A DNA stretch of 64,000 nucleotides from Bolinopsis microptera (Eukaryota > Ctenophora > Tentaculata > Lobata > Bolinopsidae). A program made the position numbers and the translations under genes. Location: positions 17,025,337 to 17,089,336 of the forward strand of contig NC_087080.1 in the NCBI RefSeq assembly GCF_026151205.1. The letters run 5' to 3'. Below are positions 3,378 to 60,735 of this stretch, one piece after another. The stretch's first letter is position 1. Every line of letters begins with the position of its first letter. The notes under the pieces were generated by a model. It searched no databases, had not been told where the DNA came from, and saw nothing but the letters and a program-made list of their open reading frames with translations.

Positions 3378-3431
3378 GTTAGTTTAATAACGATACGATC
3401 GAGATGTTTTGTCCAAGATAAGAGTAGGATA

Positions 3432-9500: not shown

Positions 9501-11632
9501 AAAATAGTGGTGATAATAGTGGTCGGTATCACTACTGCTCCTGTAGGAATTGTTATAAAATACACTTGGTAGTAAAATAGTGGTGATAATAGTGGTCGGT
9601 ATCACTACTGCTCCTGTAGGAATTGTTATAAAATACACTTGGTAGTAAAATAGTGGTGATAATAGTGGTCGGTATCACTACTGCTCCTGTAGGAATTGTT
9701 ATAAAATACACTTGGTAGTAAAATAGTGGTGATAATAGTGGTCGGTATCACTACTGCTCCTGTAGGAATTGTTATAAAATACACTTGGTAGTAAAATAGT
9801 GGTGATAATAGTGGTCGGTATCACTACTGCTCCTGTAGGAATTGTTATAAAATACACTTGGTAGTAAAATAGTGGTGATAATAGTGGTCGGTATCACTAC
9901 TGCTCCTGTAGGAATTGTTATAAAATACACTTGGTAGTAAAATAGTGGTGATAATAGTGGTCGGTATCACTACTGCTCCTGTAGGAATTGTTATAAAATA
10001 CACTACTTGGTAGTAAAATAGTGGTGATAATAGTGGTCGGTATCACTACTGCTCCTGTAGGAATTGTTATAAAATACACTTGTAGTAAAATAGTGGTGAT
10101 AATAGTGGTCGGTATCACTACTGCTCCTGTAGGAATTGTTATAAAATACACTTGGTAGTAAAATAGTGGTGATAATAGTGGTCGGTATCACTACTGCTCC
10201 TGTAGGAATTGTTATAAAATACACTTGGTAGTAAAATAGTGGTGATAATAGTGGTCGGTATCACTACTGCTCCTGTAGGAATTGTTATAAAATACACTTG
10301 GTAGTAAAATAGTGGTGATAATAGTGGTCGGTATCACTACTGCTCCTGTAGGAATTGTTATAAAATACACTTGGTAGTAAAATAGTGGTGATAATAGTGG
10401 TCGGTATCACTACTGCTCCTGTAGGAATTGTTATAAAATACACTTGGTAGTAAAATAGTGGTGATAATAGTGGTCGGTATCACTACTGCTCCTGTAGGAA
10501 TTGTTATAAAATACACTTGGTAGTAAAATAGTGGTGATAATAGTGGTCGGTATCACTACTGCTCCTGTAGGAATTGTTATAAAATACACTTGGTAGTAAA
10601 ATAGTGGTGATAATAGTGGTCGGTATCACTACTGCTCCTGTAGGAATTGTTATAAAATACACTTGGTAGTAAAATAGTGGTGATAATAGTGGTCGGTATC
10701 ACTACTGCTCCTGTAGGAATTGTTATAAAATACACTTGGTAGTAAAATAGTGGTGATAATAGTGGTCGGTATCACTACTGCTCCTGTAGGAATTGTTATA
10801 AAATACACTTGGTAGTAAAATAGTGGTGATAATAGTGGTCGGTATCACTACTGCTCCTGTAGGAATTGTTATAAAATACACTTGGTAGTAAAATAGTGGT
10901 GATAATAGTGGTCGGTATCACTACTGCTCCTGTAGGAATTGTTATAAAATACACTTGGTAGTAAAATAGTGGTGATAATAGTGGTCGGTATCACTACTGC
11001 TCCTGTAGGAATTGTTATAAAATACACTTGGTAGTAAAATAGTGGTGATAATAGTGGTCGGTATCACTACTGCTCCTGTAGGAATTGTTATAAAATACAC
11101 TTGGTAGTAAAATAGTGGTGATAATAGTGGTCGGTATCACTACTGCTCCTGTAGGAATTGTTATAAAATACACTTGGTAGTAAAATAGTGGTGATAATAG
11201 TGGTCGGTATCACTACTGCTCCTGTAGGAATTGTTATAAAATACACTTGGTAGTAAAATAGTGGTGATAATAGTGGTCGGTATCACTACTGCTCCTGTAG
11301 GAATTGTTATAAAATACACTTGGTAGTAAAATAGTGGTGATAATAGTGGTCGGTATCACTACTGCTCCTGTAGGAATTGTTATAAAATACACTTGGTAGT
11401 AAAATAGTGGTGATAATAGTGGTCGGTATCACTACTGCTCCTGTAGGAATTGTTATAAAATACACTTGGTAGTAAAATAGTGGTGATAATAGTGGTCGGT
11501 ATCACTACTGCTCCTGTGGGAATTGTTATAAAATACACTTGGTAGTAAAATAGTGGTGATAATAGTGGTCGGTATCACTACTGCTCCTGTAGGAATTGTT
11601 ATAAAATACACTTGGTAGTAAAATAGTGGTGA
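6598..11632. repeat. 73-bp satellite array, about 69 copies
   Basis: A near-homogeneous 73-bp unit runs for about 5.03 kb. Each unit contains AGTGGTGATA about ten bases before GGTATCACTACT, arms that can pair into a hairpin. The junction segment is mostly CTTGGTAGTAAAA. A few units instead carry a variant junction (GTCCGC or GTCGC type at about 6588, 7098, 8040, 8330 and 8842), and a few lack part of the junction. Copies are almost identical, which suggests recent expansion or ongoing homogenisation. Minus-strand ORFs in the array are shadows of the repeat. Confidence 0.97.
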
Positions 11633-14600
11633 TATCTCTAACACTTCATTTAACACATCTATATCTATATCTGTGTTAAGTGGACGGTATAAAATATACA
11701 ATATCATTCTACTTCAGCAAGCTTTTAAAATTCCAATTTGAATGCATGGTGAATTATTGAAATCTTTCAGAGCTGCTCCAAACAGAGTTCCACCATCGCC
11801 GGTACGTGTTTATGTAAAAGTAGCACAATATCCTACTTTTATGCTATCATGATACTAGTATTAGTAGTAGCAGTAGGTAGAAGTAGTAATATTGCATTGG
11901 AGCGTGTCCGATGGTATCGTAATATGTGAAATTGTGTGAGGCGTGTTCGAGAAGGGGGGATCAGGTATCAAGTGCCGTACGTGACGCCCCCCCCCCCCCC
12001 CCCCCCCCCACATCTTGAGGTTTTACTGTAAGTTTTAGATTTGTTTATACACGTCCCCGCCACAATAGCTAATTTGATATCTTTTGTGTGGACACAAGTA
12101 CAAGTGTCTCTACTAATTCTGGGCAGCAAAGCACATTCGATTAATCTGCAGAAAAATGATCAAATCGGAGGATAAAGCGCTCACTTATTTGATTGGAATG
12201 ACAGGAATTAAAGTGGAATGTAGGACACGTGACCAACTTCAGATTATCGTAACTAACATATTTCTACAGAACTGCTTCTCCGAGCTTAATCCTGATGATG
12301 GGGCCGTATAAGGGTGAAGATAAAGAATGTGTTTTATATTCCGGTATGCAGAATATAAACGATTGGAAGTATTAAATTCAAAAGTGACAAGGATGGGATA
12401 AAACTATTCTATAGTTATATAATATATAAAACTATTAGGATAAATTTAATCCTGCAGGACGGCAATTTAGTCATTAAATCAATTTTGGTTGTTAACAGTT
12501 AAAATATCAGGGCATAAGTCTTAGACAGAAGTCTAAATTAAGAATACCGCGTACGGCGTACTATACACGTACGGCGTACACAGTGTGTAATGTGCAGTAG
12601 AGGTACAGTGAATATTGTACATGAACCAGGTGGTCCATGTAAAAAGGGCTAGTTTAATGTCATTACCCATTAAGTTACGTCACAATCATATCACTAAAAC
12701 ATATCCTAAGATTGAATTGTAGGGTTCTATGAGAGCTGCTGTAACTGAGCAAACCAGATAAATTCCAGACCCATTTGTTAGAAAGTAGACCCTTGTTAAG
12801 AGAGGGAGTGTGGTAAGGTCGGACCTACTATACTATACAGACTTATATACTAGACCCTACCAGATGGGGTATGTGAAGTGTGGTTTCTATGATGTGTGGA
12901 ACATTACCAATGACTATTGTTTCAACAAGATATAGTATTACAGTATCATTACTGATAGCGACAAAACGTTTACTATACTACTGTTAACTGTATCACTACT
13001 ACTATTACTGTACCACAGTGTTATTAAGGAGGAACAAGGAATTGTGGAGTTTCTGAAGGTTGTAGTTTTTATGCGTCAAGTTTAAATATGTCATTGAAAT
13101 AAATTGTTTCGATATTATTGTATGATCTCCAAACAAAAATTACCAATACATGATTGTAAATAGCTTTGAATTGGCAAAATTAATAACTCAACAAATTGAA
13201 ATTGAGTCACTTTAGGTTATACAAACGTTGGCTTATTTGTACTTAATTATGTATTATACACATAACCACAGTCTACATTACATTATAATATTATATTATG
13301 GTAAAGTTATAATATTGAATCGGAATACTCTGCCACAATCACAGAATCACTGTAAAACCTTGGCCTTCAATGAGGGTTAGTCTAAAGATTTATACATCTT
13401 GAATTGCCAGGAATCTCACTCTGAGTGAGAGAAAATAGCCTATTATGAGACAAGAGAAGAGGATCCCTCTACTACAATAAATTCCTTCTGTAACGTTCTC
13501 AATAGATATGTAGTGTTTTAATTAGTTCGAAACGCTGTTGAATAATCCAACCTGAAAGTACCTAAAGTCTGCGAATTTGGCGAATTGTTCAGCTTGTGGT
13601 GTTTTTGTCTCAAAATTTGCCGCACACAAACAAGTTTTAGTGTTTAGGCAGGAATGGCACTTCTTGCGCAATATAATATTGCATCTTACGAAATGAAGCT
13701 GCTCAATCGCCAATCGAAAGTTTGCGTCAATTTGACTAACCTGAGATATTTTGCTGAATTCTATATTAATTTAAGGCAAATGATCTGGCAACGGAAAATT
13801 AAAATGAAAAGACCAGATACTAATTGCTTCATTGATAGACATAATTTGTCACTGTACTTGGAACAAAAGAATATAAAGCATCAAGTTCTAGGTATTTGAT
13901 GATATGTAGTTTCATTGTTTCCGCCATTCCACTGACGACGAGACAATGTCGAGAAAAACATGTTTTTAGGAGAAAGATGCATTGTTGTAGAATAGCTTGG
14001 CAACATCATAGATTGTTACTGTCTACTTTTTTACATTATTAGAACAGGAGAATAAATAAAATAAAATAATCTCCGCTCCCTTAAGAACTTGATTCTCCCT
14101 AATAATCTCCCTCAACAACTAATTCTTAATTTGTATTCCTTGCAAAAGTCTCACCGCATTTATTTAACTCTTTTATTCAACAATTTATTTAGTGACATTA
14201 TCGTCGCATTACAGCAGTCGACGAGACACTTAGTTAAATTGCTAAGCTGACAAATAACGTCAGGAACATATTATTATGAGGGACATATTACGTCCCATTG
14301 TCCTTTGCCTATTTACCAGCCTGCAGTTTTATTATTTAAATAAAAACCCTAACTTGTCAGCTCTGTAGTCAAGATCTCTAGTGTAATAGCATAATAAGTT
14401 ACTGCGACCTGCAGTCACCTATCTTTAGTGTAAACATATTTTTCAAGGAAGGAAGTTCCCAGACTTTGTTCTCTCAGCTGGGGATCTCACTAACAGAAGC
14501 CAGACAAACCTGCACGAAGCCTGGACTAATATCCCTACAGTTTAGAGTGGTACTAACTACTAGGATAGACAATGATCGTACCTCTTGGGTCAAGGTTACT

Positions 14601-20101: not shown

Positions 20102-20343
20102 GTGCCACACATCTCTGAAGCCATGGAGCTGCTAGAAGACAAGATAAGACAAAAGCTTCTACCAAAGATGCTGGGCAGGGAGATCTCTGACTTAGAGAGA
20201 GATGTGTTAAGTTTACCGATAAGATTGGGAGGATTGGGCATTGGTAAACCCCACAAAGAAACCAGTTTGAGTACACAGCCTCCAAGCTGATGACTAATGA
20301 GCTGACTATTATTATAAAGGGTCTCAATAAGAGGTCTCGACTG
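20102..20343 (+). pseudogene. Retroelement C-terminal fragment (LPIRLGGLGI region)
   Basis: Residues around 20206-20250 read LSLPIRLGGLGIGKPHKE. After a frameshift the next frame continues with NQFEYTASKLMTNELT, up to about 20340. This is recalled as the stretch after the reverse transcriptase in a multi-copy invertebrate retroelement protein family. The same family's later segment appears at 23509-23730, so this copy is probably split by later insertions. Non-functional. Confidence 0.5.
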
Positions 20344-20344
20344 C

Positions 20345-21592
20345 CTAGGCGTCAGACCTTTTGATACAATAGATCATGGTACATTACTTGTCAAATTACA
20401 GGGCTATGGGATACGTGGGGTGGCAAATGATCTTATAAAAAGTTACTTAACAAATAGATCACAATATACTGAAGTTGTTGGTGAGAAATCTGACGCCTTG
20501 AAAATACAGTTTGGAGTCCCTCAGGGTTCGATTCTTGGACCTCTCTTATTTCTCCTATATATTAATGATATCGCCAACAGCTCCAGTTTGGGATCATTTG
20601 TCACCTTCGCTGATGACACCAATATATTTGTGACTGGGAAATCTAAAAAGGAGGCATATATGCGTGGTAATTCTCTTTTAGCTAGTTTATATTCCTACAT
20701 GCGAGCAAACAAACTCCATGTCAACTTGTCTAAATGCTGTTTCATTCACTTTAAACCAGCATCGTCCTCCCAGACTGACAATAATTCTGAATATACTCTA
20801 ACCATTGATAACTTTCCAATAAAACAAGTTGCATCTGCTAAGTTTCTGGGAGTCGTCATCGATGAAAAGCTAACCTGGGAAGAACATATAAAATCACTTA
20901 GGCGTTCTCTCAGCCATGCAACATCAACTCTCTGCCGCCTACGCTGCTCCCTCCCAGATTTCTTACACCGCCAGTTGTATTACACTCTATTTGAATCACA
21001 CCTCTCCTATTGTATCACGGTTTGGGGTGGGGCAGCCAAAACTCGTATAAGTTCTGTATTCAAAGCACAAAAATATTGTCTCAGGGTACTGTTTGGCGAC
21101 AGGGAGGCATACCTAGATAAATTTAAGACCTGTGCTCGTGCTCGACCGTTTGGCAACCAAAATCTGAACAAAAAATTTTTCTTGAAAGAGCACACGAAAC
21201 CTTTGTTCAAGGAACACGGAATACTTGCCGTCCAAAACCTGTACACTTACCATTGTTTCCTTGAGCTCTATAAAATCATGAAATTCCGTGCTCCGATTTC
21301 CCTCCATGAAAATTTCACCTGCTCAAGTAGGAAACCCACCCTTATACTAAGCCAAGCAGACCCCCCTGACAACTTCAATAGCAGAACGACTCGTATTTGG
21401 AACGTAATTGTGCCTAAGCTTGGTATACGTGACTACTGTCTAAGTGTGGCCTGCCTGAAGTCTAGGATGAAGCAATCACTGCTCGTCAACCAGCATAACC
21501 ATGCTGATCTTGATTGGACAAACAAAGATTTCGAATGCTCTAATCTAAATTTTGACATTAAGTCTACCCTAGGGTCCACACATCCAAAATGA
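20345..21592 (+). CDS. 5'-truncated LINE reverse transcriptase
   Basis: The open frame begins inside motif A (PFDTIDHG) and continues through GYGIRGVANDLIKSYLTNR, GVPQGSILGPLLFLLYINDI, the catalytic FADD box (about 20610-20621), KFLGVVIDEKLTW, and the thumb motif SYCITVWG. It ends at the stop at 21590-21592. The palm lacks its first half and the catalytic Asp of motif A is replaced at the breakpoint (LGVR before PFDT). The endonuclease is absent. The remainder has no internal stop. An ATG-initiated product is not likely; this is a dead-on-arrival 5'-truncated copy. It resembles the CR1/L2 group by motif pattern. Confidence 0.8.
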   Translation, partial: LGVRPFDTIDHGTLLVKLQGYGIRGVANDLIKSYLTNRSQYTEVVGEKSDALKIQFGVPQGSILGPLLFLLYINDIANSSSLGSFVTFADDTNIFVTGKSKKEAYMRGNSLLASLYSYMRANKLHVNLSKCCFIHFKPASSSQTDNNSEYTLTIDNFPIKQVASAKFLGVVIDEKLTWEEHIKSLRRSLSHATSTLCRLRCSLPDFLHRQLYYTLFESHLSYCITVWGGAAKTRISSVFKAQKYCLRVLFGDREAYLDKFKTCARARPFGNQNLNKKFFLKEHTKPLFKEHGILAVQNLYTYHCFLELYKIMKFRAPISLHENFTCSSRKPTLILSQADPPDNFNSRTTRIWNVIVPKLGIRDYCLSVACLKSRMKQSLLVNQHNHADLDWTNKDFECSNLNFDIKSTLGSTHPK

Positions 21593-31614: not shown

Positions 31615-31813
31615 ATTGTTCTTTAACGAGCCACGTAATAATTTGTAATTAGAAACTATGTGGGCAGCTAACGGTTAATATTTTCTACTATCAAAAAGCT
31701 AAGCGCACTATGATGAACTCGAAATGAGCATGTATTTCGAATTTTACAATCTATATGGCATTGGCAGTCCTGAGTTCTGAGTTTGAACTTTGATCATGGG
31801 GTTAGAAATAAAA

Positions 31814-33279
31814 TATTAGCCTGTACTGGCTCAATAAAATGTGACCTCCAGATCAGTAAAATTAAGGGTGCTGGAAGAGCTGCATAGAGTCCACTAGTAT
31901 TTAATATTAGCCTGTACTGGCTCAATAAAATGTGACCTCCAGATCAGTAAATTTATGGGTGCTGGAAGAGCTGCATAGAGTCCACTAGTATTTAATATTA
32001 GCCTGTACTGGCTCAATAAAATGTGACCTCCAGATCAGTAAAATTAAGGGTGCTGGAAGAGCTGCATAGAGTCCACTAGTATTTAATATTAGCCTGTACT
32101 GGTTCAATAAAATGTGACCTCCAGATCAGTAAAATTAGGGGTGCTGGAAGAGCTGCATAGAGTCCACTAGTATTTAATATTAGCCTGTACTGGCTCAATA
32201 AAATGTGACCTCCAGATCAGTAAAATTAAGGGTGCTGGAAGAATTTGCATAGAGTCCACTATTATTTAATATTAGCCTGTACTGGCTCAATAAAATGTGA
32301 CCTCCAGATCAGTAAAATTAAGGGTGCTGGAAGAGCTGCATAGAGTCCACTAGTATTTAATATTAGCCTGTACTGGCTCAATAAAATGTGACCTCCAGAT
32401 CAGTAAAATTAAGGGTGCTGGAAGAGCTGCATAGAGTTCACTAGTATTTAATATTAGCCTGTACTGGCTCAATAAAATGTGACCTCCAGATCAGTAAAAT
32501 TAAGGGTGCTGGAAGAGCTGCATAGAGTCCACTAGTATTCAATATTAGCCTGTACTGGCTCAATAAAATGTGACCTCCAGATCAGTCAAATTAAGGGTGC
32601 TGGAAGAATTTGCATAGAGTCCACTAGTATTTAATATTAGCCTGTACTGGCTCAATAAAATGTGACCTCCAGATCAGTAAATTTATGGGTGCTGGAAGAG
32701 CTGCATAGAGTCCACAAGTATTTAATATTAGCCTGTACTGGCTCAATAAAATGTGACCTCCATATCAGTAAAATTAAGGGTGCTGGAAGAGCTGCATAGA
32801 GTCCACTAGTATTTAATATTAGCCTGTACTGGCTCAATAAAATGTGACCTCCAGATCAGTAAAATTAGGGGTGCTGGAAGAGCTGCATAGAGTCCACTAG
32901 TATTTAATATTAGCCTGTACTAGCTCAATAAAATGTGACCTCCAGATCAGTAAATTCAGGGGTGCTGGAAGAGCTGCATAGAGTCCACTAGTATTTAATA
33001 TTAGCCTGTACTGGCTCAATAAAATATGACCTCCAGATCAGTAAAATTAGGGGTGCTGGAAGAGTTGCATAGAGTCCACTAGTATTTAATATTAGCCTGT
33101 ACTGGCTCAATAAAATGTGACCTCCAGATCAGTCAAATTAAGGGTGCTGGAAGAGCTGCATAGAGTCCACTAGTATTTAATATTAGCCTGTACTGGCTCA
33201 ATAAAATGTGACCTCCAGATCAGTAAATTTAGGGGTGCTGGAAGAGCTGCATAGAGTCCACTAGTATTTAATATTAGCC
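31814..33279. repeat. 91-bp tandem repeat, about 16 copies
   Basis: Units begin TATTAGCCTGTACTGGCTCA (first at 31814, next at 31905). They share GACCTCCAGATCAGT, GGTGCTGGAAGA and CATAGAGTCCACTAG. Variation is mostly single-base, with TTTGC against CTGC as a recurring difference. Confidence 0.95.
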
Positions 33280-34322: not shown

Positions 34323-35987
34323 CAAAATTAATATATACACTTTTACAAATCATTTGGAATACTTTTGAAAAGGCATAACATGCTCAAAAATACTACCAAC
34401 GTATTTCTCCGTAATAACGATAGCGTGAGTAGCTTTCGTCGAGGTCTTTCGAAATTGATCTTAGAAGATTTCCCGTTCAATTTTGGACGTGGAACTAAAC
34501 AGCAACTCAATGCAAATTCACATAAGCTTGAAATTGCGTAGTAGAGCAATGGACACAATTTGTGATTTGATTTATTGATCGCTATGCTGTATGCACGAAT
34601 ATTCGTTTAAGAACCGATGATCGATGGGCTAGCAGTATTGCTATACATTACATGAGTTGTTTGTCCACACAGTGCTTGCACACCCAATACAACACCGGCG
34701 GCGTGTTACACAATCCTTTTTCTAACATTCTCGAACATCATCGAAAATGGAAATGTGGTAAATTTTGGTTCTCCACAGGGTCTCAGCATTTAGTTTCGAA
34801 GGTTCTAAGCTAAAGTGTCAATGTAATTGATCCTCAGAATCGTTAAGTCCTTCAGTAGTAGGACTGATGATAAGATTAGATTATATTCGTAAATCATGAC
34901 CAGCAGATATGACACCAGCAATATACAAAAGTTAAACTGGAGAATGATAAGTCTACTTGAGTGCAGAGTTATCTTGCAGCTTTTGATGGTTTGTCCTTCT
35001 CTGTTCGAACAATAGATAATCTTGAAACCTATTTATTGGTGCCTTTTATCTTCAACATACACCATCTAATGTTTAAGGAATGCTATTGAATCTACTAGTT
35101 CAACAAATATTTCACTTGATAACAAGCTTGCAGCGCTTGTGAAACCGTAAAATGCTTGTAGAATCAAATCTGTCTTATCTGCAACCATTCGATGTCTGGT
35201 GATGACATTCCAAACCAGTCACAATCACAAGTAAACTATTTCAGCATACATTACTAATTTGTCAGCTATCTAAAGCATTATGTATTACCCTCTAACAAGG
35301 CGTTGCATCTGAGTAAACAACTAACTGTTAGACAGTGTATTGGATGGAATGTATACAATCTCAAACCAATTACCTATGAACTATCAAACTCTCAATCTGA
35401 TTTATTATGTTTCAACTTATCGAATTGAAAGCAGAGTTTATTTTTTAAAACTTTTAAATATCTTCACACGATTAACTTATTCCCCACATCACATTGCTTT
35501 TACTAGTTTTTTTTACTAGTCTTTAACTACATTTTTTGCCCACAAATAGGGCATTGCGTAAGTCAATTTTGAGTTAGCTGACCGTGTTTTAAGATTTGTA
35601 AATTAGTCCACCAACTGACAAAACAATTAGACCCTTTCTGATTTTTTGATATTTGTTTCTGATGAGAAACATTTGCAGCTGTTCGAAAATACGACTAATC
35701 CAAAACCCTCTCCAGTAGACACATTGTCATTGCAAATATAAAAACCAGTCCATAGATAGACCAGCTGTTGTGTCCCTGTGGTATCGTGACGGATTGACTT
35801 TCACAGACAAATCTCTCCATAGTGTCCATCTATCGCAAGGACGCACAGTATTGATTGTGCAATGCTAAGCTAAACTATTCCAGAAGGAGCAAAAACAGCC
35901 AGGATGAAGTCATTTTCTTAGTAGACAGAGCTACAAAAACGGTCTCAACTTAAAATTTATCTGCTTGATCTTCTAAGAGTTCTCATA
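34323..35987. other. Intergenic, nothing recognised
   Basis: About 1.66 kb of AT-rich sequence without a recognisable gene, RNA or repeat. Confidence 0.45.
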
Positions 35988-36021
35988 AATTAGAATTAGA
36001 ATTAGAATTAGAATTAGAATC
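35988..36021 (-). repeat. TTCTAA microsatellite tail of the LINE
   Basis: Five to six copies of TTAGAA on the plus strand, directly at the expected 3' end of the minus-strand LINE. Confidence 0.75.
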
Positions 36022-36449
36022 AAATTTACACAGCAATACAATAAGAATAAAAATAATTTAAGAAGCTTCAATCTGCTGTGCAGGACATTCAAGTCAGTCG
36101 AAAACTGTTAGCAGAACACCCTTCTAGGGACATAAGGATATAGTATGTAAAACATAATGAGTAATAAATTAATGAGTGATAAAATAAGATATGATTTAAC
36201 AGTGAACTGTGGGCATGAAGGTAACAATTAAGATTACATAGATGCCCACTTTGGGATTACGTTAGTAATGTTATTTACAGTTATATACAGAGAAGTATAG
36301 AACAATAATAGATTGGCAATGATAACAAATGGGAACGAATAAAGGAGATGTTTAAAGTTCTATACTTCTGGAAAAACCTAGGTCATATATAACGCAGGGG
36401 GCCTTTCCACCCGACAAAAACTCCAGCACCATAAAATTTGTTTCAGTTG

Positions 36450-39447
36450 TCACATAGCTAGAGTGTAGAAATAGTCGAAACTATTGTTTATTTCATAGGA
36501 TGAGACTCCTTGAATTACATCTGACATAAATTTAGATTTCATACATTGTGAGAATTTTACACTACATTCTATAGTCCTTATGTTCTCTGGAATTGTATTC
36601 CAACATTTTGCACCTAAATATGTAAAGGTTTTGTGTGTTCTGGATTTGTGAATATAAAGGTTGCACCTCTCAGCATCACGTGATCCTCCGGATACATAAG
36701 AAAATTTATCTGTGAATGATGATGGTGCAGCCTCATTAAGAATTTTATACATATACGTTGATAGATGGAGTTGTCTTCTTTAAGTGTAAGGGTAACCACT
36801 TCATATTTCGATATACATTTACTGATGGTTCCTGCCAATGAACATCCAGAGCAATTTTTGCTACTTTCTTGTATAATATATCAAGAGAATTAAGTTTGGT
36901 TTTGGCAGCCCTACACCATATTATATCCAGGTAGTCAAATTGGGGGAGCATAAGAGCATTTACAAACATTTTTCTATATTTCAGTGGAAGAAGATTTTTC
37001 GACCTGTATAATGCCCCTATTCTTTTAGCAATTTTTGATTTCACATAATCAATATGGTCTTGAAAGTTCAATAAATTGTCTATCATGAGACCTAAATATT
37101 TTTGAGATTTAGTTTCTTCTATAAATAGGCATTCTTTTTCCAAATCCAGAGGGATTGACAACGTGTCCAGATTAGGTGATCTATCAAATACAATGAATGA
37201 AGATTTTGCAGCATTTAGTCTTAGCTTGTTGATTCTAAGCCATTCATACACAATTTTCATATCCTTAATTACATTCTCATATATGCCTCGGGAAATGTTA
37301 TCAAAATATAGTGCACTATCATCTGCAAATAAGTAAACAGTAGATTGTGTGCAATTTCTACTGAGATCATTTATGAATAAACTAAATAGAATTGGTCCTA
37401 ATATGCTACCCTGTGGCACACCTGTTTTAACAGGGAGTGATGTGCTTACATTACCACGTATTTTTGTGTGTTGCTTTCTGTCCCCAAGGTAGCTTTTGAA
37501 CCACTTTATGACAAAGCCATCAACTCCATAATACTTAAGTTTTTTTAATAAAATATTATGGCTTACTGTGTCAAAGGCCTTTTTGATATCTAAGAATACA
37601 ATTGCAGGTTTCTTCTGTGATTCCTTAGACGTAAATATTTTATCAAATAGATTAAGCATTAGAAAAGTGGTGGAATGATCTTTTCTAAAACCATACTGAT
37701 GGTTGGTAAGCAGTTTATTTGTTTCAACATACTCTGTAAGCTGTTGGTTAACAAAATATTCTATGCATTTTCCAAGTAGGGGGAGTATGGATATTGGCCG
37801 GTAGTTATTTGGATCATTAGGGTCACCAGTTTTAAGAATTGGAGTGACTGATGCAATTTTACATGCCAACGGCATTGTTCCACTTTTCATACTAAGGTTT
37901 ATAATATGAGCTACTGGATCGATGATTTGGGGAATAATATACTTATATATTTTAATGGGCATGATATCGTTAATCGATTTATCTGATGGTATACTGAGTA
38001 TATATTCTTTTACTTGTTCAACAGTCACCTCTTCGAATACAGAGAGTTTACACTCTGTTGGAGGCGGCATATATTCTAGGAAGTCGTCTGAATCCTTTTC
38101 CTTAATCGATTCTTGTATTATTGTACCAACTGTGGCAAAATGCAGGTTAACTCCGTTAACATTTAAGTTGCTTGGGGAAGAGCTACTTATTTTTCCAGGT
38201 AAGTTTGAAGCATGTTTGATAGTTTTCCAAATGCCTTTTAAATCGTTTTTTGCACTTTTCACAGTAAGGTCCTGAACAATATTTGTACGTCTGTTTTCTT
38301 TGGATAATTTTGTAACATAGTTTCTTTGGGGACGATAGTTATCCCACGAAGTAGAGCATTTCTTATGTAGTTCACTTTTTCTGCATTTACATATTCCATT
38401 AATACAATTACACTTGAATTTGTTTAATTGTCCTAAACACTTTTTATACTTTCTGAAAAGCATCTTCTTCTTCCGTATTTCTGCCAACAGTTCTTTAGAG
38501 GGATTACAGAGAAAGTTACTATTACATTTTATCTGTTTAGGTGGACAGTAATTATCATACGATTCCTGGATGTGATGATTAAGTCCATCTAGGGCATGGT
38601 CTACATTAGTACAGCTTAGAATATTACTGTAGTTGCTGCAGGATCCCAGAAAATAGCTTAAGGCTTTCAGATTGTTTAAGGAGTGGTCTCTGATAAGAAC
38701 CTTCTGGAATTTACTAGCTTTACTTACTTTAAAGTCGAGAACACATTTGAGAGCTTGGTGATCTCCTATTCTATCATCAAGTACTTTACACTCTATGAAA
38801 TTAGAGTAACAGTTAGTCATGACAACATCTATTGTGCTCTGCGTTATCCTACCATCTAAGTTTGCAACTCTAGTAATTCCTGTAACAGTCTGTATCATTC
38901 CAAAGAGCTTCATTGTTATATCTAACTTTTTATAATCTAGATCAGATAAAGAGTTTTGGTTAACATTAACATCGCCAATCCATATTACTTTCTTACCCTG
39001 AAGTTTCATCATACATTCAGTCATATAATCAAGGAAAGTATCTAGGTGACAAAAGTTTTGTGATCTGTAGAAGCAGCAAATGTAAAGATTGGCATCCTTG
39101 AGTTGTATCCATATAGCTTCGATTTTAGAAATATCAGAGTAAGTTATATCTAAATTGAGTAATTTGTGGTTTACATTTTGGTTGATCAATATACCACACC
39201 CTCCTCTTCCTCTATCGTTAGGTCTATCACACCTTATAAAATCAAAGTTTAAGGGGAAGTTAAGTGTACTAGTGTCTATATCAGATTTAAGGTTTGTCTC
39301 ATTAATTCCAATTATGTCAAGCTTTTCGCGAAATATTAGCTCCTGTAGTTCGAGAGTTTTTGCCAGATTAGTCAGGCCACCCTGTATATTACATAGACCA
39401 AGAGAGAGATTATCGTTTATTGAGGTACGAATGTGGTAATAATAAAG
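36450..39447 (-). CDS. LINE ORF2: APE endonuclease + reverse transcriptase (one frameshift)
   Basis: The frame opens after a TAA at 39450-39448 with LGLCNIQGGL, then LDIIGINET (catalytic Glu), RPNDRGRGGCGILI, WIGDVNVNQ, STIDVVMTN and IGDHQAL, a full APE-type endonuclease. The reverse transcriptase follows: NNYRPISILPLL, YGFRKDHST, motif A VFLDIKKAFDTVSH (about 37560-37602), GVPQGSILGPILF and FADD (near 37320). A one-base deletion near 36775-36785 shifts the last part. The other frame (to 36450) continues with MYKILNEAAPSSF and GAKCWNTIPENIR, the usual C-terminal domain. There is no ATG before the endonuclease core, so translation would need reinitiation at a non-ATG codon, or the start has mutated. 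Catalytic residues all appear intact. Confidence 0.9.
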
Positions 39448-39623
39448 TTAAAAGGAGGACAAATCTATACGTTTCTTCTTCAAGCAATTTAAATAAAATT
39501 CATGACATTTAGTTTTATGTCATGCTGATTTATTTGTGACTTAATAATTTAAAATGTGATTCTTTGATAAAAGTATCAAATACTCATTTAACTACAGAAC
39601 TTTCTACAATCTGAATGGAGAGA

Positions 39624-41360
39624 CTAAGTTTGCTCATTGTGGGATAAATATTTTAAATGTTTCGCCAACCTGGCGATTCCCTTGATATTAAGGTGAACAT
39701 TATCTATTCCCTTTTTGAAAAATACCTGTTTCCTTACTCCAGTAACTCGGCTGGTAAATAGTCTATTGGTACGTTCTAAATCTATATAATTTAACCCATG
39801 GCTAGAGCAGGTGTTAGAAATAAACCTATTTAATTCGTTGATAACTTCATTTTTGTTATAACTGTTCCTAGGTAAAATATTTATAACTGAAATTCTTGCT
39901 CCAATAAACATTCCCCAAAGTATACTAAGTATTTGATCAATTCCTTCTGTTGCATTTTTCATAGAAATATAATTGTTACAGACAGAATCTACGTAGTTTG
40001 TGCCTGTTAGTATGAAAACACGCTTTACATCCTTTTTGTCCAGTTTTTTGAACTCCTCATCATGTAACAGCCTATTTAACATTTGAGCAGAGTTCGCTCC
40101 AGGGTAGAAGAACACCTTAGCTTTCTGCTTCCTCGAACTTAGTAGAGTTCCGTTGAGGTCCCTGAACATACTGCTGCTGATGTAGATGGTATCAATTGGC
40201 AGGTCACTTGGGATCTGTTCAAGTGAAGGAGGCGCTGCAGTTGACTTGGCTGAACTCTTAACTCTGGAATGGTGGACTTCAAATTCACTTTCGTTGTAGG
40301 GTACATATCCACTAGCTGTAGAAGGTGATTTTCTTGGTTGACTGCAGACAACTGGTTTGATAAGTCTAAAAGTTAAACTGATCCTTTTGTCTGTGCATAG
40401 TGGATCGGGACATAGTTCATGGTTGAATTGATGTTGGGACTTTTTGGACATAAGACATACATCTCCATGTTCTAAAATTAGGGAAGTCACCACTTGTCCT
40501 GTTTTGATTTCAGTCAACTGCATCATCCTGGAAGCACCAAGGGACACTGTTACAATGTACGAATCTTCTTCAATAAATTCTTCATTGTCACTATGAGCAG
40601 GCATATGTTCCTCTCCAGATTCATAGAGATTGACCAGAACACTGTTGTAGTTGTATTCTGGGAATAGCTCATCTAGAAAGGAACATATACTTGCCATGTA
40701 AGATCCCTGGGGGATCTTCTTTGGGTCATGCATTCCTCCACTGTACACGTAAGGATGTTTCCCAAAGTAGACTGATTTCCTGTTATGGAAGTGGTGGCTG
40801 AACTTTAATTCCTCAAATAAGATTTCAACAGAAAATTTGCTGAATGGTGCCTGTTCAATAAGTTCAACAGGTGTGATGGCGATATCAGGGATTTCATAGT
40901 CTGTAGTAAGGTCTGAACTTGACACAGGTGTTAAATCTAATCCTGCATAATATTCACCACTTCTTGGAATAACTGAGCCAGTGTCTGTAATCTCGCTGGT
41001 TGAAATGTCTATGTTGTTAGAAATAATTGATAGAGGTGCTTCTACATAGCCATCATCATCAATCAACAAAAATGATTCTGGTACCTCACATTCATTGTCA
41101 TACTGAATGTTATTGTTGCTGGAGTCCGTTTGCACTGATACATCGGAACACTTGTATTGAGCAATTGATTGGTTTCCACTTTGAGGCGAAATAGTTTCAT
41201 TAATCTCTGCTATTGTTTGTGAGGTTTGAACAATCTCCTCTAAAATGAACACTTTACGCTCCAGAAACTTCACGCGAGTTTCAAGATCTGAACAGTTTTT
41301 ACATTTTGTATCACATTCCATCAATAATTTGCCGAAAAATGTTTCCAATGAATCGTTCAT
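39624..41360 (-). CDS. LINE ORF1: coiled coil + AlkB-like 2OG-Fe(II) dioxygenase + SGNH esterase
   Basis: A 578-residue intact ORF. Residues about 15-55 hold a CxxxxCxxC cluster and a predicted coiled coil. Residues about 185-335 form an AlkB-like dioxygenase: NSVLVNLYESGEEHMPAHSD carries the iron ligands H256 and D258, H314 is the distal ligand, and R326 and R332 give the RxxxxxR signature (RISLTFR). Residues about 390-570 form an SGNH hydrolase: nucleophile region YISSSMFRD (Ser about 396), LTGTNYVD with N455, and DNVH with D553 and H556. Esterase domains in ORF1 are known for CR1-type LINEs, and AlkB domains are known from some plant RNA viruses, where they repair alkylated RNA. Having both in one LINE ORF1 is unusual to my knowledge. 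Inference: the protein binds element RNA, removes methyl or alkyl marks and has a lipid or acyl esterase activity. Starts at the first ATG; ends 176 nt before ORF2. Confidence 0.9.
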   Translation of the reverse strand: MNDSLETFFGKLLMECDTKCKNCSDLETRVKFLERKVFILEEIVQTSQTIAEINETISPQSGNQSIAQYKCSDVSVQTDSSNNNIQYDNECEVPESFLLIDDDGYVEAPLSIISNNIDISTSEITDTGSVIPRSGEYYAGLDLTPVSSSDLTTDYEIPDIAITPVELIEQAPFSKFSVEILFEELKFSHHFHNRKSVYFGKHPYVYSGGMHDPKKIPQGSYMASICSFLDELFPEYNYNSVLVNLYESGEEHMPAHSDNEEFIEEDSYIVTVSLGASRMMQLTEIKTGQVVTSLILEHGDVCLMSKKSQHQFNHELCPDPLCTDKRISLTFRLIKPVVCSQPRKSPSTASGYVPYNESEFEVHHSRVKSSAKSTAAPPSLEQIPSDLPIDTIYISSSMFRDLNGTLLSSRKQKAKVFFYPGANSAQMLNRLLHDEEFKKLDKKDVKRVFILTGTNYVDSVCNNYISMKNATEGIDQILSILWGMFIGARISVINILPRNSYNKNEVINELNRFISNTCSSHGLNYIDLERTNRLFTSRVTGVRKQVFFKKGIDNVHLNIKGIARLAKHLKYLSHNEQT

Positions 41361-41605
41361 GATGTTGAGTTGGTTGAGTTGGTTGTAGATAAAAAGATTG
41401 ATTGAAGTCGATTGAAGTTGATTGAAGTTGATTGAATAGATTTGATACCTCCAATTACATTACATTTTTGTCATGTTGGTCATTTTGGTCATACCTCAAT
41501 AAATGTAATAGATTTGTAGTGTTGTAATTAGTTTAAAATGATGGTAGTTGCTGAACATTTATAGCTTTCCATGGCTCTACTGCTAAGACTATTTGTGTGA
41601 GCTCT

Positions 41606-41745
41606 CCTTACCATCCTAATTGGTAAAGGCCTCAACATTGTGCTCCAAGGACTTCTATTCTATCCCAACTGTATCCTTACCATCCTAATTGGTAAAGGCC
41701 TCAACATTGTGCTCCAAGGACTTCTATTCTATCCCAACTGTATCC
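41606..41745. repeat. 69-bp tandem duplication upstream of ORF1
   Basis: CCTTACCATCCTAATTGGTA begins at 41606 and at 41675; both run to CCCAACTGTATCC. It lies 5' of ORF1 and could be a promoter repeat of the LINE, as seen in some LINE leaders. Confidence 0.85.
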
Positions 41746-42429
41746 TGCAGTCGATTTAGCTCATCTCCATGGTAGCAATGAAATGAGGGATTAACTTTCA
41801 TCTAATAATTTCTTAAAGAAGATTTGATATAGATGGAGTTGTTCTCATCAGATTACAGATAGTTCCCTCTTACTTGTCGCATAGATATAGGTAGAACTAA
41901 GCCAAGTGCGGTCTTGATTGAGTGGAAGTGCACACTCGTTATTGAACTAGAATTGCACCACTCTTTGTTACCAACACAGCACCTTTGGAATTTCTGTCCC
42001 AAGAACTGACTGTAAGAGGATCATTACTCGATTTATTCTATTCTATGAGTTTCTCTCTTGCACAGTAAGTACTGCCACTACATTAAAACACGAGAGAGCG
42101 GAAGACAAGTGTGATCAGGACTCGTTTGCACATTTAAAGATTTGCACTTTTTAAAGTTTTGCACTTTTAAAAGTTTTGCACTTTTAAAGTGCAGCACCCA
42201 TTTGATGGAGGCTTAAATTACAACTTTTCGTATTCACTATTTAATTTTATGTTTTTGAGACCCCAATACCCACAATGATCTTGTGTGCCTCTTAAGATTA
42301 GACTTCTATCTCTATTTTGTATCCCTCTTTGATTTCGGAGTGAAAAATGTTGATCTGACCCTCCCCCACGATTATGAACTGTATGGTTCACTAGAACCTA
42401 ACTATTCTTAAATTTATAGGCAAGTCACC
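41746..42429. other. Upstream region of RPL38
   Basis: No gene recognised. A run of GCACTTTTAAAGTTTTGCAC words occurs at 42130-42190. If the downstream cluster is a single transcription unit, its promoter would be expected here. An ATAG acceptor lies 10 nt before the RPL38 ATG. Confidence 0.45.
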
Positions 42430-44718: not shown

Positions 44719-45183
44719 ATCGCTCTATCCCCTCTCAGCTTCCTAAACTCTCTCCCTTAACATCTCTGTTAAATTACCACTCCCTCCTCAACTATGTATA
44801 AATCCTTCCCTCTTTGGAGATTCCTTATCAGATTCCCTGTCACTAGATTTAGTAGACTTCTTAGCAAATAAGTGCATAGATCTTGACGATTTGACTTTTT
44901 AAGTTTTAGTCAATTTTTGTTGTTATTTATTTGTGTATAGAATTTTTGTGGGAAATTTGATAGATATTATTGCGGTATTTGTTAAGTTTTATTTGATTTA
45001 TTGGGTTCTCAAACTATTCAGTTACATTGTTACTAAGTTCTGTCAAAAATCATCCCCTTAAAACTTGAATGATGAATCATCTGCAACACTAATAACTTTT
45101 CTTATCTTGATTTTTAGCATATCAGAAATTGATTAAATTGTATATTAAAAATTACTCAATCAAATAACTTCCTCTTTCTAGCA

Positions 45184-46436
45184 ATGGTAAAACGAGCAGC
45201 AGAACCTGAGACTGAGGAAAATGCGGAGAATATCGACTCAGACTTCAGCGACAGTGACGACGCAGCGTCAGTGTCCGACACGGAGAGTGTAGAAGAGTCA
45301 GCACAGGGAAAGAGACTCCGTCTTGCCAAACAGTACCTAGACAAACTAGAAGGAGAGCAGCTGAACACGGAGAATGATAGTGAGATAAACAGAGATTTGA
45401 TAGCGCACCGGTTACAGCAGGATGTTCTAGCAGAGAAGGGGAAGCTGGAGATCAGGGTTGGTAAGAGGTTGTGTGTACTAGAGAACAAGTTCACACTTAA
45501 AGGTCACAGAAAATCACCTACCAGTCTAGCTATTACTGCTACTCACCTGTTCTCAAGTTCTAAGGACGGTGCGATCATTAAGTGGGATATCAGTACGGGT
45601 AAGAAAGTGACAGTTGTAAAACACGACTCTAAGAAACAGATTCTCGCTCTAGCAGCATCTTCAGACAACCTGTACCTAGCTAGTGGAGGGGAAGACAAGA
45701 TGATAATCTTGTGGGATATTGCCACCATGACTTTTGTTAAGTGCTTCAGAAAACACAGAGGGGCTATAACAGCTCTAGCTTTCAGACGGAACAGTCATCT
45801 TCTTATGTCGGGGTCAACTGATCGTAGTGTAATCCTGTGGAACTGTGATGATAAGCTCTATATAGAGAGTCTGTATGGGCACCAGGATATAGTAACTGGT
45901 ATGGACAGCTTCTTACAAGAGCGGGTAGTGACAGTGGGTGGGCAGGATAAAACTCTCAGACTCTGGAAGATTCAGGAAGAATCTCAGCTGGTGTTTAACG
46001 GCCACAAGAACACAGTTATAGACTGTGTTTCCATGTTGAACGAGGAGCACTTTGTCACAGGGTCCCAGGATAACGTACTTTGTGTGTGGCACATTAAGAA
46101 GAAGAAACCTGCTATCACAGAACTGAAAGCTCATGCTAAGGGTAGCTGGATATCAGCTGTAGCGGCTCTTAAGAATACTGAGTGTTTTATAAGTGGGAGT
46201 AATGGGGGAAATGTTAAGGTCTGGGCTTGTGCTGAGACCTACAGATCAATGGCGCTGATTAAATCTATAGAAGTAGTTGGAACTGTTAATTCAATAGTCA
46301 TACCACAGATAATTCTTGTTTTGTTTTGGGAGTTGGCCAGGAGCCTAAAATGGGCCGATGGTGGTGTAATAAGGACGCTAGGAATAGAGTTTTAGTTTAT
46401 CCTATGGTAATTGAGGATGAAGAGGTTAACAGATGA
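45184..46436 (+). CDS. RRP9: U3 snoRNP protein RRP9/U3-55K (frameshift near the C-terminus)
   Basis: A single-exon WD40 protein. It has an acidic N-terminal stretch (residues about 8-45), then KRLRLAKQYLDKLE, HRLQQDVLAEKGKLEIRVGK and at least six WD repeats (KGHRKSPTS, KHRGAITALAF, GHQDIVTGMDS, GHKNTVIDC and others). This is the RRP9 architecture, which binds the U3 snoRNA box B/C and acts in early 18S rRNA processing in the nucleolus. The continuous frame stops at 46395 with an unrelated tail. In the +2 frame the expected end GVGQEPKMGRWW and RNRVLVYP continues to a stop at 46434-46436. The shift lies at about 46301-46315 and fits one missing base, either a real mutation or an assembly error. 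The ATG is two bases after a CTAG acceptor-like site. Confidence 0.93.
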
Positions 46437-50700: not shown

Positions 50701-51087
50701 ACTCGTCCTGCCAGAGATATTGAATACTGTCTCTGCTACTCTTAAATCTATCGACCAGGTATGTGCTTAAAAGTTATCCCAGTTTTCAAATGGAATGTAG
50801 CATTTTGTGAAAAGTTTCTTTTTGCCGTACCAGTGTCCAAAAGATGATTCACTGCACGTACCTGTCAAAGATATGCAGTACCAGATTATGAGCATATTAT
50901 CACCAGACTAACGTCTAACCCACATAATCACCAGGTTCCTATAGTCGGCAGCACAGTATCTCACTCCCAGCTAAAGAGATCTCTACACCTCTTCCTGCAC
51001 CATGTTATAAACACTTACCAGACCAGCATCTTCAATCTGACCCTCAGCAGCGAGACTACAACACTACTGCAGCAGTGCTGCATCTGA
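47765..51087 (+). CDS. NDC1: Nucleoporin NDC1 (transmembrane nuclear pore protein)
   Basis: Eleven exons: 47765-47848, 48033-48136, 48303-48401, 48546-48663, 48798-48851, 49065-49101, 49620-49804, about 49972-50403, 50562-50758, 50834-50857 and 50935-51087. The N-terminal half has several hydrophobic helices. The soluble C-terminal half has ITLSLQDGHPVIWH, matching the LSQPGGHP box of NDC1, then APSEDKYGVVQLVLPEILNT and the terminal helix ending LLQQCCI. NDC1 anchors the nuclear pore complex in the membrane. Exon 2 ends with a GC donor (AG|GCAAGT). The exon 7/8 join is uncertain: the phase-0 CAG at 49936-49938 would hit a stop, so a later acceptor, a different donor or a one-base error is needed. 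The stop codon lies in the first unit of the 54-bp array that follows. Confidence 0.82.
49201..49556. mobile_element. MITE in NDC1 intron 6
   Basis: The left end GGGGTCGTTCACATTACG and the right end inverse CGTAATATGTGAACGACCCC pair with a 2-bp difference. Two long C runs (about 49243-49265 and 49476-49495) lie inside. No coding capacity and no clear target duplication. Confidence 0.7.
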
Positions 51088-52875
51088 AGTGTTGTCCTCA
51101 GCAGCGAGACTACAACACTACTGCAGCAGTGCTGTATCTGAAGTGTTGTCCTCAGCAGCGAGACTACAACACTACTGCAGCAGTGCTGCATCTGAAGTGT
51201 TGTCCTCAGCAGCGAGACTACAACACTACTGCAACAGTGCTGCATCTGAAGTGTCACCCTCAGCAGCGAGACTACAACTCTACTGCAGCAGTGCTGCATC
51301 TGAAGTGTTGTCCTCAGCAGCGAGACTACAACACTACTGCAACAGTGCTGCATCTGAAGTGTCACCCTCAGCAGCGAGACTACAACACTACTGCAGCAGT
51401 GCTGTATCTGAAGTGCTGTCCTCAGCAGCGAGACTACAACACTACTGCAGCAGTGCTGCATCTGAAGTGTTGTCCTCAGCAGCGAGACTACAACACTACT
51501 GCAGCAGTGCTGCATCTGAAGTGTTGTCCTCAGCAGCGAGACTACAACACTACTGCAGCAGTGCTGCATCTGAAGTGTTGTCCTCAGCAGCGAGACTACA
51601 ACACTACTGCAACAGTGCTGCATCTGAAGTGTTGTCCTCAGCAGCGAGACTACAACACTACTGCAGCAGTGCTGCATCTGAAGTGTTGTCCTCAGCAGCG
51701 AGACTACAACTCTACTGCAACAGTGCTGCATCTGAAGTGTTGTCCTCAGCAGCGAGACTACAACACTACTGCAGCAGTGCTGCATCTGAAGTGTTGTCCT
51801 CAGCAGCGAGACTACAACACTACTGCAGCAGTGCTGCATCTGAAGTGTTGTCCTCAGCAGCGAGACTACAACACTACTGCAGCAGTGCTGCATCTGAAGT
51901 GTTGTCCTCAGCAGCGAGACTACAACACTACTGCAGCAGTGCTGCATCTGAAGTGTTGTCCTCAGCAGCGAGACTACAACACTACTGCAGCAGTGCTGCA
52001 TCTGAAGTGTTGTCCTCAGCAGCGAGACTACAACACTACTGCAGCAGTGCTGCATCTGAAGTGTTGTCCTCAGCAGCGAGACTACAACACTACTGCAGCA
52101 GTGCTGCATCTGAAGTGTTGCCCTCAGCAGCGAGACTACAACACTACTGCAGCAGTGCTGCATCTGAAGTGTTGCCCTCAGCAGCGAGACTACAACACTA
52201 CTGCAGCAGTGCTGCATCTGAAGTGTTGTCCTCAGCAGCGAGACTACAACTCTACTGCAGCAGTGCTGCATCTGAAGTGTTGTCCTCAGCAGCGAGACTA
52301 CAACACTACTGCAGCAGTGCTGCATCTGAAGTGTTGTCCTCAGCAGCGAGACTACAACACTACTGCAGCAGTGCTGCATCTGAAGTGTTGTCCTCAGCAG
52401 CGAGACTACAACACTACTGCAGCAGTGCTGCATCTGAAGTGTTGTCCTCAGCAGCGAGACTACAACACTACTGCAGCAGTGCTGCATCTGAAGTGTTGTC
52501 CTCAGCAGCGAGACTACAACACTACTGCAGCAGTGCTGCATCTGAAGTGTTGTCCTCAGCAGCGAGACTACAACACTACTGCAGCAGTGCTGCATCTGAA
52601 GTGTCACCCTCAGCAGCGAGACTACAACACTACTGCAACAGTGCTGCATCTGAAGTGTTGTCCTCAGCAGCGAGACTACAACACTACTGCAGCAGTGCTG
52701 CATCTGAAGTGTTGTCCTCAGCAGTGAGACTACAACACTACTGCAACAGTGCTGCATCTGAAGTGTTGTCCTCAGCAGCGAGACTACAACTCTACTGCAG
52801 CAGTGCTGCATCTGAAGTGTCACCCTCAGCAGCGAGACTACAACTCTACTGCAGCAGTGCTGCATCTGAAGTGTT
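51041..52875. repeat. 54-bp minisatellite derived from the NDC1 3' end, 34 copies
   Basis: The unit starts CCTCAGCAGCGAGACTAC and includes GCAGCAGTGCTGCATCTGA, that is, the last 14 codons of NDC1 and its TGA plus 9 more bases. The period is 54 bp, so the TGA repeats in the NDC1 frame in every unit while the other two plus frames and one minus frame stay open for 550-630 codons. Variation is limited to a few sites (GTCACC for GTTGTCC, GCAACAG for GCAGCAG, CTCTACTG for CACTACTG). GCAGCA and TGCTGC in each unit form a short palindrome. The long ORFs are not considered genes. Confidence 0.95.
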
Positions 52876-58982: not shown

Positions 58983-59570
58983 CAGATTTCCACTGCACGT
59001 AGTCCGAGTGATTAGATGATTATAATTTTATCAGAATAGGCAAGTTCTCGTATGATATTCATATACTGTAGGTAGATGCACCTCCTACTGATATAGCATA
59101 GGGAGCTGGAGTGGGGACTCTAATATCTTTTGTCCATACTATGAATCATTGAATTTATCGTCTAAATCTAAGTGCTAAGACTAATGCTGACAAGCTCTAC
59201 AATTCAACGCTTAAAATAAGGATCCTATTCATTTATACCTTGCTTAATTGAACCTGATGAGGTCTCCTAAATTATTTGAGTGGCATGATGCTCCAAGGGA
59301 CTCCCGTTTGCGTGTTATACGCTCCGGCGACTCGTTCATCCCACCTAGTACAATGTCCAAATTTCCTGTAAACGCTGCAGCATCCTCCAACCAGATTTTC
59401 AGTCTTCCTTGGTGGACCTCTTGATAATTCCACACGTGTCCAGTAATAAGCAGGGGTGCCTGGTATTCTGGTCACATGTCCATTGTACGTCTAGTTCTAC
59501 TGGACTCATCTGACTCTAAGCTGCTGAGCACGTTGTAGCATCTCGTACATAAATCACAGGGCTCTGATAC
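58983..59570. other. Spacer between minisatellites
   Basis: No intact gene. A minus-strand stretch at 59285-59440 reads GPPRKTENLV and, in the next frame, EDAAAFTGNLDIVLGG with ITRKRES. It could be a decayed LINE C-terminus, but support is weak. Confidence 0.35.
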
Positions 59571-60735
59571 TGATAGTTAGGTTGAAGGTTATGCTCTGAT
59601 ACTGATACTGATAGTTAGGTTGAAGGTTATGCTCTGATACTGATACTGATAGTTAGAATGAAGGTTATGCTCTGATACTGATAGTAAGGTTGAAGGTTAT
59701 GCTCTGATACTGATACTGATAGTTAGAATGAAGGTTATGCTCTGATACTGATAGTAAGGTTGAAGGTTATGCTCTGATACTGATACTGATAGTTAGGTTG
59801 AAGGTTATGCTCTGATACTGATACTGATAGTTAGGTTGAAGGTTATGCTCTGATACTGATACTGATAGTTAGGTTGAAGGTTATGCTCTGATACTGATAC
59901 TGATAGTTAGAATGAAGGTTATGCTCTGATACTGATAGTAAGGTTGAAGGTTATGCTCTGATACTGATACTGATAGTTAGGTTGAAGGTTATGCTCTGAT
60001 ACTGATACTGATAGTTAGGTTGAAGGTTATGCTCTGGTACTGATAGTTAGAATGAAGGTTATGCTCTGATACTGATACTGATAGTTAGGTTGAAGGTTAT
60101 GCTCTGATACTGATACTGATAGTTAGGTTGAAGGTTATGCTCTGGTACTGATACTGATAGTTAGGTTGAAGGTTATGCTCTGATACTGATACTGATAGTT
60201 AGGTTGAAGGTTATGCTCTGATACTGATACTGATAGTTAGGTTGAAGGTTATGCTCTGATACTGATACTGATAGTTAGGTTGAAAGTTATGCTCTGATAC
60301 TGATACTGATAGTTAGGTTGAAGGTTATGCTCTGATACTGATACTGATAGTTAGGTTGAAGGTTATGCTCTGATACTGATACTGATAGTTAGGTTGAAGG
60401 TTATGCTCTGATACTGATACTGATAGTTAGGTTGAAGGTTATGCTCTGGTACTGATAGTTAGAATGAAGGTTATGCTCTGATACTGATACTGATAGTTAG
60501 GTTGAAGGTTATGCTCTGATACTGATACTGATAGTTAGGTTGAAGGTTATGCTCTGGTACTGATACTGATAGTTAGGTTGAAGGGTATGCTCTGATACTG
60601 ATACTGATAGTTAAGTTAGGTTGAAGGTTATGCTCTGATACTGATACTGATAGTTAGGTTGAAGGTTATGCTCTGATACTGATAGTTAGGTTGAAGGTTA
60701 TGCTCTGATACTGATAGTTAGATTGAAGGTTATGG
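59571..60735. repeat. 38/32-bp minisatellite, about 31 copies
   Basis: The main unit is CTCTGATACTGATACTGATA followed by GTTAGGTTGAAGGTTATG. A 32-bp form lacks one GATACT. Shorter units often carry GTTAGAATGAAGG or GTAAGGTTGAAGG, so two sequence classes are interleaved. Confidence 0.95.

Follow-up and report, generated by a model that had tools for sequence, protein, structure and literature searches.

This locus raises the question of why a LINE would place an AlkB-like dioxygenase and an SGNH esterase together in its ORF1 protein, and whether that pairing belongs to one odd element or to many transposons of the same genome. The window, by which we mean the whole 64,000-nucleotide stretch of Bolinopsis microptera DNA analyzed here, contains an ORF1 that reads from an ATG at 41360 to a stop at 39624 on the minus strand. 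An earlier note on this DNA had claimed an intact 578-residue ORF without stating its strand, and the frame is indeed uninterrupted over that length. Its product, ORF1p, is the first protein of a recently active non-LTR retrotransposon and joins an ALKBH2/3-type dioxygenase to a LINE esterase. The features on which the argument draws are the following.

35987..41538, minus strand: LINE copy of family F1, ~5.55 kb, with an (ATTCTA)n 3' tail, delimited by the alignment limits of copies
39624..41360, minus strand: LINE ORF1 (578 aa) with predicted coiled coil, then AlkB dioxygenase, then SGNH esterase; frame intact, copies with open frame
41196..41291, minus strand: predicted coiled-coil helix, residues 24-55 (AlphaFold, low pLDDT)
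40353..40883, minus strand: AlkB-type 2OG-Fe(II) dioxygenase, residues 160-336 (Pfam, PDB profile, structure)
40587..40595, minus strand: iron-binding motif H256-S-D258, its H and D invariant in 20 transposon AlkBs
40365..40421, minus strand: H314 (iron) and R326/R332 (2-oxoglutarate, RxxxxxR), invariant in 20 transposon AlkBs
39627..40208, minus strand: SGNH esterase, residues 385-578, with S397, N455, D553 and H556 (PDB profile, structure)
39448..39623, minus strand: ORF1-ORF2 spacer, site of the F1/F2 identity jump (F1-F2 alignment)
36745..39447, minus strand: ORF2, APE-type endonuclease and reverse transcriptase (Pfam)
37084..37827, minus strand: reverse transcriptase domain, ORF2 residues 541-788 (RVT_1, E=2.4e-39)

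The boundaries of the element follow from its relatives. Sister copies and a sister family start aligning at about 41538 (blastn), and sister copies stop in the (ATTCTA)n repeat tail (about 35987-36025), which gives a copy length of ~5.55 kb. As the earlier note had it, an endonuclease-reverse transcriptase ORF adjoins ORF1 downstream on the same strand (39447-36745); Pfam recognizes only Exo_endo_phos and RVT_1 in it, with no RNase H, and the frame of the window copy is lost after residue ~892 of the 998 aa found in sister copies. With an APE endonuclease, a reverse transcriptase (RT), no RNase H and a short-repeat tail, F1 fits a CR1/L2-like LINE of the Jockey group by its sequence features. 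Whole or near-whole F1 ORF1 occurs at 14 genomic places with 93-100% identity, all 14, including the window copy, being open frames; 12 of the 13 other copies are 97-99% identical over the protein and one is 93% identical. These near-identical, intact copies are spread over many chromosomes, and nearly all of the 41 copies of the F1 3' end among the matches listed are 98-100% identical, from which we conclude that the family moved recently.

Several observations concern the surroundings of the element and the start of its second frame. In families F1, F2 and F3, no ATG precedes the endonuclease motifs in the ORF2 frame (window 39447-38900, minus strand, for F1), F4 and F5 having one, and translation of ORF2 in the former three may initiate at a non-AUG codon or in some other way. 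A perfect 69-bp tandem duplication (window 41605-41746) adjoins the 5' end of the LINE on its upstream side and lies outside the element as the aligned sister copies define it. The window has two more fragments of LINE RTs, both of this broad RT type, at 1560-3383 (minus strand) and 20318-21589 (plus strand), AlkB and SGNH not being detected beside them; they are probably 5'-truncated copies. Large minisatellites occupy 6596-11634, 31812-33279, 51042-52875, 4995-5737 and 59561-60716, a 73-bp unit being repeated 69 times across 5 kb in one of them, and tandem repeats account for the long ORFs at 51 kb and 5 kb, which are artefacts. The long uninterrupted frame at 45133-46392 (plus strand) is a WD40-repeat host gene, which we take to be possibly the U3 snoRNP protein RRP9.

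The AlphaFold model of ORF1 consists of the helix at residues 24-55 and two confidently predicted domains, with disordered linkers between. The N-terminus is a single helix, predicted with low confidence and preceded by a CxxC (C20, C23) of which both cysteines are kept across the F group. The domain that follows is of AlkB type: Pfam places 2OG-FeII_Oxy_2 over residues 202-332 (E=1e-20, 75.2 bits vs a cut-off of 31.2), a PDB sequence search with the single protein matches ALKBH3 (5e-8), and a profile of ORF1s from 11 families matches ALKBH3 at 7.7e-27 and ALKBH2 at 6.6e-26. Its pLDDT is mostly 72-94, and the predicted model has the double-stranded beta-helix fold, superposing on ALKBH2/ALKBH3 with Z 21-22 and rmsd 2.2-2.5 Å over ~172 residues (VIA-align). 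The dioxygenase residues that the earlier note had named (H256, D258, H314, R326, R332) proved correct, and they are, together with E260, invariant in all 20 aligned transposon AlkB sequences. E260 aligns with D135 of E. coli AlkB, is also a glutamate in three non-transposon ALKBH2/3-like genes, and is typical of AlkBs that repair m1A/m3C. The position of E. coli AlkB Asn206, a 2-oxoglutarate contact, is Ser in 20 of 20 transposon AlkBs, so cofactor use may differ. Judged by fold and conserved residues, the dioxygenase of ORF1 is apparently catalytically competent.

In the C-terminal domain, Lipase_GDSL_2 covers residues 419-561 with E=1.6e-5, under the Pfam curated cut-off for this single sequence. 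The 11-family ORF1 profile matches the LINE ORF1 esterase 4c1b at 1.8e-9 and the PAF-acetylhydrolase-like 2hsj at 3e-11; the domain is thus detectably homologous to the known zebrafish LINE ORF1 esterase. The domain is modeled with pLDDT mostly 84-95, and its predicted fold matches PAF-AH and sialate O-acetylesterase with Z ~18. S397, N455 and H556 are invariant across 11 LINE families; D553 is invariant in the F group, and the C families have no Asp at the expected column. Of the esterase residues proposed earlier, N455, D553 and H556 stand, and the serine, then placed at about 396, is S397. Profile searches, the modeled fold, conservation of the catalytic residues, purifying selection and the multiplicity of copies fully bear out the earlier reading of this frame as a LINE ORF1 combining the two enzymes; profile matches, the predicted double-stranded beta helix and further genomic copies were all looked at, and none speaks against it.

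By implying a single odd element, that reading was too narrow, since the pair is usual in at least 15 LINE families and is found in Helitrons as well. Every intact LINE ORF1 that we read in the 265 Mb genome carries both AlkB and SGNH, across at least 15 families and two distant RT types. Searching the genome with PF13532 gave at least 151 places over the cut-off among at least 588 candidates, mostly long open frames of recurring lengths. The arrangement around the pair varies by group: ORF1 reads N-terminal CxxC/coiled coil, AlkB, SGNH in the five families of the F group; PHD, AlkB, SGNH in the four families of the B group; AlkB, SGNH in the two families of the C group; and AlkB, coiled coil, SGNH in the D group, whose ORF2 RT is only ~26-29% identical to the RTs of the other groups. 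An endonuclease-RT ORF2 lies downstream of ORF1 in F, B, C and D elements. When five RT classes were picked blind to ORF1 from the top of the RVT_1 search, a sample of top-scoring RTs only that leaves out remote LINE clades, AlkB lay upstream in 5 of 5, as an intact AlkB-SGNH ORF1 in four, where Pfam agrees on the AlkB, and as an internally deleted ORF1 with parts of both domains in one. No relative was found in the viral contigs and prokaryote genomes searched with the F-group alignment. As a separate observation, the N-termini of several AlkB-SGNH ORF1s bear PHD-type zinc fingers, some of them weak, and several ORF2s have PHD/C1-like cysteine-rich N-termini.

The pair also occurs outside LINEs. 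A continuous frame of 3388 aa (contig C10, 16874382-16884545) encodes SGNH, AlkB, a long low-complexity stretch, Helitron_like_N and PIF1, with Pfam E-values of 1.9e-21 for AlkB, 3.3e-22 for Helitron_like_N and 6.8e-22 for the PIF1 helicase. Because a Rep domain and a PIF1 helicase share one frame, its sequence identifies it as a Helitron. The order SGNH-AlkB is the reverse of that in LINE ORF1, and both domains stand ahead of the Rep-helicase. Several related frames of 2200-3366 aa are among the PF13532 matches. The Helitron AlkB domain is basic, with a net charge of +9 to +11. We know of no report of a Helitron with N-terminal SGNH and AlkB in one frame.

The AlkB domain has been maintained by selection in these elements. 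A check of dN/dS in pairs from four element groups, rough because dS is near saturation in several, gave values of 0.06-0.21 that indicate purifying selection (F4/F5, 0.105; F1/F2, 0.114; B3 pair, 0.18; D pair, 0.056; Helitron pairs, 0.17-0.21). In each LINE pair for which the two domains were compared, AlkB is better conserved than the esterase (83% vs 65% in F4/F5), and in most pairs it is also better conserved than the N-terminus. Trees of AlkB, SGNH and RT concur in holding together the F group, the C pair and the B pairs, with some forks open, and the transposon AlkBs form a group of their own apart from three host-like ALKBH genes with moderate support (86/73). Positions 271 and 328 of F1 are Thr and Ser in 20 of 20 transposon AlkBs, and Ser and Asn in the three host-like genes and E. 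coli AlkB. The common T271 and S328 and the joint grouping favor, without proving, a single origin of the transposon AlkBs and their later passage between elements, and they disfavor separate capture of a host AlkB by each element type, the joint grouping having support of only 86/73.

ORF1 also appears to move relative to ORF2. Families F1 and F2 are ~65-70% identical in ORF1 DNA and 97.5% identical in ORF2, the identity rising abruptly from ~55-65% to 97.5% at ~39465 in the ORF1-ORF2 spacer, and F4 and F5 show a like pattern with the identity switch at the ORF2 start. Such an abrupt change at the junction indicates that ORF1 was exchanged, or ORF2 homogenized, as a module. Together with the recurrence of the pair in Helitrons, ORF1 exchange between near-identical ORF2s suggests ORF1 to be the component that undergoes swapping and diversification. 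A bolder proposal, which we regard as possible but on the doubtful side, is that AlkB and SGNH constitute a mobile two-enzyme module across unrelated transposons (two distant LINE RT lineages and Helitrons), whose parts would cooperate on modified nucleic acid to clean or unmark the element's own copies.

The best explanation that we can offer for the fusion, and one to which we give about an even chance, is that ORF1p coats the element's RNA while its AlkB domain strips m1A/m3C so that the template stays copyable, that the esterase acts on lipids, and that in Helitrons the pair guards single-stranded DNA. The predicted coiled coil would let ORF1p multimerize, and we infer that the protein binds its own element RNA. 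The AlkB domain probably doubles as a nucleic-acid-binding surface, because esterase-type ORF1ps are otherwise without one, though the net charge of the LINE AlkB domains, near zero or negative (-12 to +4), is not what a strong RNA-binding module would be expected to show. With Fe(II), O2 and 2-oxoglutarate, the domain would remove methyl groups from the Watson-Crick face (m1A, m3C), and doing so before or during target-primed reverse transcription would keep the RNA template copyable, because m1A and m3C block reverse transcriptase; ALKBH2/3 remove both. Resemblance to ALKBH2/3 makes this removal of alkyl or methyl groups from template RNA plausible, while the RNA "editing" in the earlier functional reading has found no support. 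The esterase probably works on lipids or membranes in RNP assembly, as proposed for ZfL2-1, and in Helitrons the AlkB-SGNH pair would shield the single-stranded DNA intermediate; its presence there shows that a role on RNA alone would leave part of the pattern unexplained.

The same enzyme might instead erase host-set m6A (or m1A) from element RNA, serving to evade epitranscriptomic silencing and not to repair damage. The ALKBH5-like protein of an orchid Gypsy element removes m6A in vitro and was interpreted along these lines (PMC9289625), and the ctenophore genome holds MT-A70 (m6A writer) and YTH (reader) domains; however, the nearest relatives of the transposon AlkBs are ALKBH2/3 and not ALKBH5 or FTO, a glutamate invariably occupies the position of AlkB D135, and Helitrons move as DNA yet bear the pair. 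We think m6A erasure unlikely, and since m6A-writer, m6A-reader and m1A-writer domains are all present in the host genome, the host machinery does not discriminate among the rival readings. The substrate could also be DNA, with the enzyme protecting single-stranded intermediates (in LINEs the first-strand cDNA made in target-primed reverse transcription, in Helitrons the rolling-circle strand) or demethylating target- or donor-site DNA. Single-stranded nucleic acid is what LINEs and Helitrons sharing the pair have in common, ALKBH2/3 act on DNA, the Helitron AlkB is basic, at +9 to +11, and the PHD in B-group ORF1s and the zinc-finger-like ORF2 N-termini hint at chromatin work; yet RNA is the classical partner of LINE ORF1p, and we judge this reading unlikely.

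Chemistry would be irrelevant if the AlkB fold were a mere nucleic-acid-binding module replacing the RRM of other ORF1s, an idea to which the missing known RNA-binding domain of esterase-type ORF1ps lends some appeal (PMC3905857). We consider it improbable, as all iron and RxxxxxR ligands are invariant in 20 sequences from distant elements even though the domain has otherwise diverged. That the pairing is an artefact of misassembly, of a host AlkB gene misread as part of a LINE or of chance similarity has a negligible probability, since near-identical copies are numerous and lie on different chromosomes, the families number at least 15, profile E-values go down to 1e-27 and structural Z exceeds 20; copies and statistics rule out chance. 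Insertion of a host ALKBH gene next to a LINE is likewise rejected: in many families a single frame encodes both AlkB and the esterase. Template protection by demethylation remains our preferred reading. Were the enzyme active, the ORF1 of these LINEs would include a nucleic-acid demethylase, and this would be direct evidence that methylated template bases, be they damaged or marked by the host, exert a selective pressure strong enough to elicit a transposon-encoded answer. With one protein, two questions become testable: the role of the esterase-type ORF1, and a possible restraint of LINEs by epitranscriptomic marks.

LINE ORF1s with an esterase were already known, as was one LTR element bearing an AlkB; our search of the open-licence literature found no report of AlkB in a LINE or Helitron or of the AlkB-SGNH pair, a result that, coming from papers of that kind only, argues weakly for novelty. 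Plant RNA viruses (Betaflexiviridae and relatives) carry an AlkB domain in their replication protein, and by description, not sequence, they resemble the present elements as RNA-based parasites with an AlkB, the partner domains being other ones. Human ALKBH3 and ALKBH2 share with the transposon AlkBs the fold (Z 21-22), the iron and 2-oxoglutarate residues and a glutamate where AlkB has D135, but are only ~21-25% identical to them, and the transposon AlkBs differ in having Ser instead of AlkB Asn206 and in being fused to SGNH, coiled coil or PHD. Helitrons with accessory domains likewise combine Rep (Helitron_like_N) with a PIF1 helicase, and the one described here differs by the N-terminal SGNH and AlkB within its 3388-aa frame.

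The closest architecture is the Type IV (esterase) ORF1 of CR1/L2 LINEs such as zebrafish ZfL2-1 (4c1b; PMC3905857, PMC4120745), which likewise has a C-terminal SGNH domain and is followed by an ORF2 with APE endonuclease and RT; its coiled coil has a counterpart in F1 in the helix predicted at low confidence. Esterase-type ORF1ps of this kind have coiled coils but lack a structural RNA-binding domain, and their esterase binds phospholipids (PMC3905857). No AlkB has been described there, whereas here AlkB sits between the predicted coiled coil and the esterase, so that F1 ORF1 departs from the Type IV definition, under which the esterase is the only globular or enzymatic domain besides coiled coil or zinc finger. 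A survey of the Jockey superfamily found the esterase-type ORF1 confined to vertebrate L2/CR1 groups. The closest precedent for a retrotransposon-encoded AlkB is the ALKBH5-like protein of a Phalaenopsis Ty3/Gypsy element, which binds RNA and removes m6A in vitro (PMC9289625). That system is an LTR element of a plant with a separate, ALKBH5-like ORF and no esterase, whereas the AlkBs described here are ALKBH2/3-like, fused to SGNH, and carried by many families of LINEs and by Helitrons.
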